Assembly (NCBI GenBank): GCA_030614915.1
Contig: JAUXAG010000021.1
Span: forward strand, 1-39,275
Length of the DNA: 39,275 nucleotides
Origin: Actinomycetes bacterium
GTDB taxonomy: Bacteria > Planctomycetota > Phycisphaerae > JAACET01
Direction: 5' to 3'
Shown: positions 25,575 to 28,065 of the stretch, in pieces
How the letters are laid out: each line of letters opens with the position of its first letter
Position numbering within the stretch: position 1 is the first letter of the stretch
Made by a program: the position numbers and the translations under genes
Notes under the pieces: generated by a model
Seen by the model: the letters and a program-made list of their open reading frames with translations, nothing else
Told to the model about the DNA's origin: nothing
The model's database searches: none

Positions 25575-26435
25575 TTATACCTGGCCACTAACGTTCTTGC
25601 AAGCCTGTGTTTCACCAGTGCTTATCGCCTGTGCCACCGGTCCAAAGGCTGGCTGCCCAGCTAACAATTCTTTTGCAGGACAATATAGACTAGCCTTTCG
25701 CCACAGCCAATCTCGCCGGGCTGATTGGCCCGCAAAATGAGCCGCCAGTGCCAAAGACGCGTGGGCCAGTCCCGCCTGCTCTGTCGGTAGTAATCCCGCC
25801 AGGGCCACCTTATTAGGCAGATCGGCCATTACCGTATCGCTCCGTCCGACCCGGATGCCGTAGCTTATCTCCGCCTGCAGTACGCCCAATCGCTCGCTAA
25901 TGTTCAAGGCCGTCCTGCTGAGCACTGATAACGATTCGTAGGCCCCAACCAGGTTATTCATGGCCAGGCTGCACTCAGCCCGTATCGCCTCCGACAGGAT
26001 ACGTATTCTATTGCTGTTTTTACGAGCCCAGTTCCGCACCAGTTCGCAGAATTGCCACGCCGCCGGCCATTGTCTTTGTTTCTGAAGGATCACAGCCAGA
26101 TTGTGACAGGCCATCAGGAGCACAGGTTTGTATATGCATAAACCTCGGCAGACCCCTGAGAGGATCTCCCGGGCCTGGGACAGTTGTCCCGCCGCGATTA
26201 ATTGGCTGGCCCTGGTGGTTAAGTTGGCTTTTCGTCTGGCTTGGATGCTCAGGCCTATCCAGACGACGCACACGGCTATAAGCACGCTGGTTCCCGTGGT
26301 ACCATCGTTGGAGTCTGAGGCCCTGACCAGGCCGTAAAACAAAGCGCACAGCAGTCCGCCGCGCACCGCACGCGTCAGTCGGATGCTGTTGTATGCCCGA
26401 CGTATAAGTTGTTCGGCCTGTTGGTCGCTGATCAT
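25575..26435 (-). CDS. Membrane protein with TPR-like helices (paralogue B)
   Basis: A 286-residue protein with two hydrophobic segments at about 26-36 and 50-65, separated by a short acidic loop, then alpha-helical TPR-like repeats (QLIAAGQLSQAREILSG, QKQRQWPAAWQFCELVRN). It has the same build and order as paralogue A at 27157-28065 (two membrane segments then TPR helices). Function unknown. The start ATG at 26435 has AAAAGG about 6 nt upstream. The upstream gene would end only 17 bp away if the island at 26451-27168 were absent, which suggests an original tight operon A-B-TPR/HEAT. It lies 79 bp before the TPR/HEAT gene. Confidence 0.75.
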   Translation of the reverse strand: MISDQQAEQLIRRAYNSIRLTRAVRGGLLCALFYGLVRASDSNDGTTGTSVLIAVCVVWIGLSIQARRKANLTTRASQLIAAGQLSQAREILSGVCRGLCIYKPVLLMACHNLAVILQKQRQWPAAWQFCELVRNWARKNSNRIRILSEAIRAECSLAMNNLVGAYESLSVLSRTALNISERLGVLQAEISYGIRVGRSDTVMADLPNKVALAGLLPTEQAGLAHASLALAAHFAGQSARRDWLWRKASLYCPAKELLAGQPAFGPVAQAISTGETQACKNVSGQV

Positions 26436-26450
26436 GGAACCTTTTATGCT

Positions 26451-26464
26451 GCCTAGCCCTCAGT
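26451..26464. repeat. 14-bp direct repeat, inner copy of island
   Basis: GCCTAGCCCTCAGT, identical to the copy at 27155-27168. It lies in the non-coding stretch 16 bp upstream of the paralogue B start. Confidence 0.8.
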
Positions 26465-26580
26465 AATACCCCCTGTTATATCTCCTTTATTACTAATATC
26501 GTACAACACCTAATTTTTAATTAAGAGAATATCAAAAGAATTGACTAAAAAAACTCCCAGCCTCTGAAAAAAGAAACAGC

Positions 26581-27045
26581 TTAATAATATTGCGGAACCT
26601 CTATATGAAGGAGAATACCAATAGAATTTATATCTTCAACAAAAATAGTTTCTGAATCTAGTTCGAATGCAATTTGTGGTAGAATCTTCTGGGTATCTTG
26701 ACGACATTCTTCAAGTTGAACAAATATATCCCAATTATATAACCAATATGTAATTTTAACCTCTTTATTTTTCTTGTATATTTCGAAAAGAGTTTTTACC
26801 TGGTTTTCTAAAGCATAAGACATTTCTAAGGTAAAAGATTGACCATCTTCTTTATTTGCAAAGCAATTCCAGTCTATTATTATTACTCGATTAGTAAAAA
26901 TTTGTTCAACATAAGATTCTGGATAATTGATTATATCAGAAAGTTCAATTGTATCGGTCTTGGAAAAAAAATTGGCGGCAAAATAAATACATACACCTAT
27001 AGTTATCATTATGCAAATAAAAATAAAATAGGTTTTCATTTTCAT
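26581..27045 (-). CDS. Orphan membrane-anchored protein of AT-rich island
   Basis: A 154-residue protein rich in Ile, Asn, Lys, Phe and Tyr. It has one N-terminal membrane segment (about 5-25, YFIFICIMITIGVCIYFAANF) and a mostly soluble remainder with alternating hydrophobic residues (EVKITYWLYNWDIFVQLE) and two internal Cys. I do not recognise a family. The frame is AT-rich, unlike every other gene here, and lies in a direct-repeat-bounded island, which points to a foreign origin. The start may be ATG 27045 or the next ATG at 27039, as AGAG precedes both closely. Being anchored near two membrane-TPR proteins may be chance, as the island may have inserted anywhere. Confidence 0.6.
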   Translation of the reverse strand: MKMKTYFIFICIMITIGVCIYFAANFFSKTDTIELSDIINYPESYVEQIFTNRVIIIDWNCFANKEDGQSFTLEMSYALENQVKTLFEIYKKNKEVKITYWLYNWDIFVQLEECRQDTQKILPQIAFELDSETIFVEDINSIGILLHIEVPQYY

Positions 27046-27059
27046 CTCTTATATAAAGG

Positions 27060-27103
27060 TTATTGTTCTTCTATTCGACATTTGCCTTTATTGTTCCTCT
27101 ATT
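27060..27103. repeat. Two 16-bp direct repeats upstream of the island gene
   Basis: TTATTGTTCTTCTATT (27060-27075) and TTATTGTTCCTCTATT (27088-27103) match at 15 of 16 positions with a 28-bp period, just upstream of the start of the island gene. They could be a binding site or simple low-complexity AT sequence. Confidence 0.45.
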
Positions 27104-27154
27104 GTTTTCATCCATTTCTTGAAATTTGCTAATCGTTGTACCGTGTGTTCTGGC

Positions 27155-27168
27155 GCCTAGCCCTCAGT
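27155..27168. repeat. 14-bp direct repeat, outer copy of island
   Basis: GCCTAGCCCTCAGT, identical to 26451-26464. On the minus strand it reads through the last codons and TAG stop of paralogue A. Confidence 0.8.
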
Positions 27169-28065
27169 GGTTCCCGGCAGTGGCGGAGCACTCGGATAGC
27201 TCTCCTCCAGCTCGGCTAATTCCGGAAACTTTTCCACTAGTATGTCTGGCCCCAGTAGCATGGTCGCTTGCTGCCAGAGCACTTCTGCATTGCTGCCACC
27301 GGCCTCTGGACTATTACCGGGCGATTCATCGCTGGATGCAGACATCTCCTGATGTCTGTACGCCAGGCCTAGAAGGGCATAAACATACGCCGCTTTGCTA
27401 CTCATTCCTGTCCGAGCCAGCTCGCATTTGTTTGAGCTTTCTGTCAGGGCATCGGAGTAGTGACCGGTCTTGATCTGCTGGTACAACCGCCCCAGCAGTA
27501 CCAGCGATTTCAGACTCCGGCTTTCCACACTTACCTCCAGCCGACGGATGATAGTATCTGCATCGGCTAGTTGGTCCAATTTCAATAGAACAATTGCCTT
27601 TCCAACCAGCGCCAGGCTGCCCAATAGGCCATGCGGCTGTTCCCGGGCGATGGCTTCGTATATTTCTGTGGCCCCTTTCAGCTGTCCAGTGTGTTCGGCT
27701 ACCCCTGCCAACTCCAGTAAGCCTTGGTAGCGGATCTGGGCCAGGGCCACCGGCTTGCCAAGCAACCGACGCAGCGGCTCAATAGCCTGCGACCATTTCT
27801 CCTGCAGGCAAAGGTCCGACACCTGTTGGGAACATTTGGCCAAAACTTTTCGCCGCGTAACACTCCTGATTACCGATATCCCCAGACCGACGAGAATGAC
27901 CAAGCTCAGCAACATGCGAATCAATTGGCCCTGCTCGGTTTCCGGGGAAATAAGCAGGCTCCAGATCAGCAGTATAAAGCCGATCAGAATGAACGTGCCG
28001 ATCTTAGTCAGCCTACGGCGTGGGCGGCTGCTGGCAATCAAATCAGTAAAGTCTACCTCAGCCAT
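27157..28065 (-). CDS. Membrane protein with TPR-like helices (paralogue A)
   Basis: A 302-residue protein with two hydrophobic segments (about 22-40 and 48-66), then about 200 residues of TPR-like helices (LCLQEKWSQAIEPLRRLL, AEHTGQLKGATEIYEAI, ALTESSNKCELARTG). It is built like paralogue B. The N terminus is basic and cytoplasmic. The protein has no enzymatic motif; a role as a membrane scaffold is inferred from TPRs only. A strong promoter sits with its -10 only 9 bp before the ATG at 28065, so the mRNA may be leaderless. Its stop codon lies inside the 14-bp repeat that bounds the AT-rich island. Confidence 0.78.
   Translation of the reverse strand: MAEVDFTDLIASSRPRRRLTKIGTFILIGFILLIWSLLISPETEQGQLIRMLLSLVILVGLGISVIRSVTRRKVLAKCSQQVSDLCLQEKWSQAIEPLRRLLGKPVALAQIRYQGLLELAGVAEHTGQLKGATEIYEAIAREQPHGLLGSLALVGKAIVLLKLDQLADADTIIRRLEVSVESRSLKSLVLLGRLYQQIKTGHYSDALTESSNKCELARTGMSSKAAYVYALLGLAYRHQEMSASSDESPGNSPEAGGSNAEVLWQQATMLLGPDILVEKFPELAELEESYPSAPPLPGTTEG

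Follow-up and report, generated by a model that had tools for sequence, protein, structure and literature searches.

An AT-rich island of a few hundred base pairs, bracketed by short perfect direct repeats, separates two genes, here called B and A, in a window of 39,275 nucleotides (the whole stretch of DNA that was analysed). This raises the question of whether the island was inserted between two genes that were once adjacent and, if so, when and by what route it came to be there.

Boundaries of the island

The 14-mer GCCTAGCCCTCAGT was found exactly at both edges of the island with a period of 704, the bordering bases differing on both sides, as the preliminary description had reported. The shift in base composition coincided with these repeats, G+C being 28.8% in the island against 54.9% for the whole window. 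On the minus strand the gene order was B, the island gene, A and then an 812-aa TPR/HEAT protein (coordinates are given in Table 1). The stop codon of B is the TAG inside the outer repeat copy, and the claim that B is left intact was confirmed. When one repeat unit was deleted in silico, 17 nt remained between the B stop and the ATG of A at 26435, which is the gap that had been predicted. Both B and A had weak, TPR-like family matches only; they had been taken for paralogues, but BLASTP detected no similarity between them (best E 5).

Table 1. Positions in the window of the repeat copies, the island and the genes within and beside it
Feature	Position	Strand	Remarks
Inner 14-bp direct repeat copy	26451..26464	.	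15 nt upstream of the gene A start codon; identical in G001
Outer 14-bp direct repeat copy	27155..27168	.	contains the final codons and stop of gene B; identical in G001
AT-rich inserted segment	26465..27154	-	690 bp, 28.8% G+C; missing from the B-A junction in G002 and 14 class relatives
Island gene	26581..27045	-	154 aa, membrane anchor at the N terminus; one of a small family, its long homologues in the genus being of coiled-coil type
Gene B	27157..28065	-	upstream neighbour of the island, intact; 302 aa with weak TPR-like matches
Gene A	25575..26435	-	downstream neighbour of the island, intact; 286 aa with weak TPR-like matches

Chance occurrence of the repeat at many unrelated places had been named as evidence that would tell against insertion; a search of the whole genome found no further site matching GCCTAGCCCTCAGT at 0 or 1 mismatch. 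As a control for chance, 250-bp stretches spaced 700 bp apart were compared in the rest of the window, and these rarely shared 14 bp. With two exceptions, exact 14-bp pairs in the window fell in a single tandem-repeat gene at about 600-1300, a TPR gene with an internal repeat of 102-bp period that supplies most of the exact direct repeats in the window. It had also been proposed that the same island and repeat might be found at other gene ends, and here the search of the genome was negative for a second copy of the island, of its protein and of the 14-mer alike. Terminal inverted repeats were absent (the longest inverted match between the island edges was 7 bp, at chance level), and there were no Rfam or tRNA matches.

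Other AT-rich islands were surveyed for bracketing repeats in 457 kb of the 2.56 Mb genome. The present island was the most AT-rich of all islands in this sample, and none of the others had edges of this kind. A 17-bp repeat pair (C35:143577 and 143922) looked alike and was rejected, lying inside a multi-domain sensor kinase gene.

Polarity of the insertion

The present genome (G000) was compared with two sister species of the same genus (G001 and G002) and with 14 further genomes of the class. G001 (record DAOVKO010000063.1) carried the same island, repeats and neighbours. The island was absent from the junction in G002, where 5 nt separate B and A, and in the 14 class relatives a homologue of A directly followed B, the spacing ranging from about -4 to +175 nt and often consisting of an ATGA overlap. 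A B-A gap of 721 nt was therefore confined to G000 and G001 in this comparison; the gap values depend on start codons, some of which are uncertain, and three additional loci gave no usable distance. The possibility that all relatives carry the island, which had also been raised as evidence against insertion, was thus not realised. Since island-free adjacency of B and A is usual in the class, while the long gap occurs in two sister species, these comparisons indicate that the island is almost certainly a derived insertion.

The B-A junction in G002, CCTGAGGTAAAATAGgaaaaATG, could be aligned with ACTGAGGGCTAG, and the copy of the repeat at B was accordingly taken to be the native sequence, the second copy having either arisen through the insertion or arrived along with it. 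An empty site in relatives, holding one repeat copy between adjoining genes, had been suggested as a check. The adjacency was found, as described above; an exact single-copy 14-bp site was not, the sole empty sister, G002, being too diverged there (CCTGAGGTAAAATAGgaaaaATG) for the 14-mer itself to be preserved. Because the outer copy is the 3' end of B itself, the best interpretation of the repeat is a target duplication or an att-type core.

Divergence of the island between sister species

The island differed between G000 and G001 at 11 of 690 positions (1.6%), compared with 82 of 1502 (5.5%) in the flanks and about 11% in other sampled shared DNA. It was the least diverged interval of its length: within the surrounding 9.45 kb of shared sequence the next lowest 690-bp interval had 21 differences (median 47), while 18.9 kb shared elsewhere gave a minimum of 31 (median 78). 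Four of 88 silent sites had changed in the island, the comparison value being 17.4%. Since the island is so much less diverged than its flanks and the other shared DNA, it is suggested that it entered late, or repeatedly, in both lineages, and this is the reading favoured here.

A single old insertion, by whatever route, would also account for these data if the low divergence reflected purifying selection together with a low mutability of AT-rich DNA, or if G000 and G001 had later exchanged the region by homologous recombination; this is a substantial possibility, although well short of an even chance. The frame of the island gene has been kept between the two species, with a dN/dS of 0.35 (based on ten changes), which is consistent with selection. 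AT-rich intervals elsewhere had roughly 6-7 differences in every 100 positions, compared with 11-12 (few intervals were available), and one other shared AT-rich stretch was 97% identical; as such intervals are less diverged than average by about half, composition accounts for part of the apparent youth of the island. Against an old insertion, only 1 of 225 positions differed in the noncoding part of the island, compared with 21 of 343, and among A/T bases alone 1.2% differed in the island, compared with 7.8%. Homologous exchange through the flanks would be expected to leave longer identical tracts than the 46 and 24 bp observed; divergence at the flank rate began within about 25-50 bp outside the repeats. 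When other unique AT-rich segments of G000 were considered, five of the six tested had no match in G001 (a genome with a completeness of only 83%), as would fit a view of AT-rich DNA as a shifting accessory fraction.

The island gene

The island carries a single open reading frame. Its conserved frame and low dN/dS suggest that the product is probably a working membrane-anchored protein. There was no family-model match, and structure prediction for the 154 residues gave a model too poor to use (mean pLDDT 43). The gene had been considered an orphan; however, longer homologues were present elsewhere in the genus. Identity to the island protein was 38% for a 519-aa protein in G001 and 32% for a 591-aa protein in G002, in each case over the N-terminal part and the last strand; these homologues lie at unrelated loci, and in both a coiled-coil-like region separates the two matching parts. 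L071 (295 aa), from another family of the class, was a weaker relative. It was suspected that the short protein arose through internal deletion of a long homologue, and this was dropped as unproven because L071 has the same N-terminal part and final strand joined by a short variable linker. Third-position G+C was 20% in the island gene, 44-50% in the long homologues and 62% in B and A.

A search of the genome collection matched the G001 and G002 records only. In G000, three AT-rich genes of unknown function lie 3' of an ftsQ-like gene (L065 6401-9100; G000:C2 about 60400-63100), with GGGGACAGT...ACTGTCCCC palindromes between them. In G001 the site is occupied instead by the long homologue of the island gene, and in G002 by yet another sequence, making this a variable accessory-gene site. 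Direct repeats were absent from the edges of the long homologues in G001 and G002, and from those of the AT-rich genes at the ftsQ-like locus in G000.

Route of insertion

The route favoured, tentatively and at somewhat less than an even chance, is targeted insertion by a recombinase acting in trans. A single-gene segment from an AT-rich source would have entered the B-A junction in the G000/G001 lineage, exactly where B has its stop codon, keeping B whole and the upstream region of A in place. The 14-bp repeat would be the target duplication or att-type core of this event, the recombinase would most likely be a phage-type tyrosine integrase, and the segment may have arrived in both species late in their divergence or afterwards. 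Several observations support such a route: the repeats are exact at the island edges in both species, the outer copy is native, the island is little diverged, and the genome of G000 encodes eight tyrosine recombinases (two Xer-like, several of phage type), none of them in the window region. Against it, the island contains no recombinase and has no second copy in the genome, no excised form was seen, and no donor emerged, homologues of the island being absent from viral contigs, phages and plasmids; moreover, the target is a protein gene rather than a tRNA gene, and AT-rich composition partly explains the low divergence. The att-like integration in trans proposed in the preliminary description therefore stands in part: the repeat at the 3' end of an intact B, the integrases elsewhere and the apparent youth of the island agree with it, and the missing recombinase and second copy do not. 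Illegitimate recombination, offered there as the alternative, is also a possible route.

A substantial rival possibility, also well short of an even chance, is a single event in which a linear foreign fragment was taken up at a staggered double-strand break: end-joining would have inserted it, and fill-in of 14-nt overhangs would have duplicated the target. No dedicated recombinase would be involved, and its absence would be explained, as would the 14-bp repeat, the single copy and ends that are not inverted. However, the break would have had to fall precisely at the stop codon, harmless to B and A, and the low divergence of the island relative to its flanks is not predicted unless there was constraint or later exchange between the lineages.

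That the island is what remains of a DDE or casposase-type transposition which duplicated 14 bp of its target is very improbable: casposases do duplicate 14-15 bp and are able to insert at gene 3' ends (PMC6977970), but terminal inverted repeats, a Cas1-family gene and further copies are all absent.

Were targeted insertion in trans correct, single genes could spread by this means without integrons or transposons. A stronger version appears unlikely, namely that a trans-acting enzyme has repeatedly placed a minimal cassette of about 700 bp, with one gene and with neither inverted ends nor its own recombinase, at the 3' end of a single chromosomal gene in different species; if true, such a cassette would represent a novel type of very small, site-specific passenger element. 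Whatever the route, this is a clean case in which the direction of change is known, one foreign gene having entered a conserved gene pair and broken neither member, and from the pattern of divergence follows a claim that can be tested, namely late arrival in both hosts.

Comparison with known systems

The island resembles integrase-dependent islands and integrative mobilizable elements in being distinct, foreign DNA between short perfect direct repeats, one of which restores the target gene at its 3' end. The empty arrangement by which such islands are recognized was seen in G002 and the 14 relatives, where B and A adjoin, although G002 does not preserve the 14-mer. It differs from them in comprising only 690 bp and one gene, in lacking an integrase and in having a protein-coding target. 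With casposons, whose 14-15-bp target duplications can overlap a gene 3' end (PMC6977970), it shares a 14-bp duplication so placed; unlike them it has no inverted ends, and no PF01867 (Cas1) match was found in the genome, which is about 96% complete. Integron gene cassettes are comparable in size, in having one gene per segment and in reading in the same direction as their neighbours. However, the repeat reads GCTAGGC rather than a GTTRRRY core, and no attC-like fold was found in the 3' part of the island, where folding was no better than in shuffles. The absence of inverted ends, of an attC-like fold and of Cas1 counts against DDE transposons, integron cassettes and casposons.

Other features of the genomes

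Two dispersed repeat families were observed (G000:C35:216300-216637 and C35:7467-7729), with dozens of matching places in G001 and G002; one has tandem CACAGATGAACACAGATAAACACTGATT and the other AAATCAAAAATC-type inverted arms. Public records of the sister genomes (L074-L076) are labelled Actinomycetes or Actinomycetota. A FEPLEERMLLSG-type motif in G000 (L065 10413-13067) recalls Planctomycetota, and the deposited labels may be wrong.
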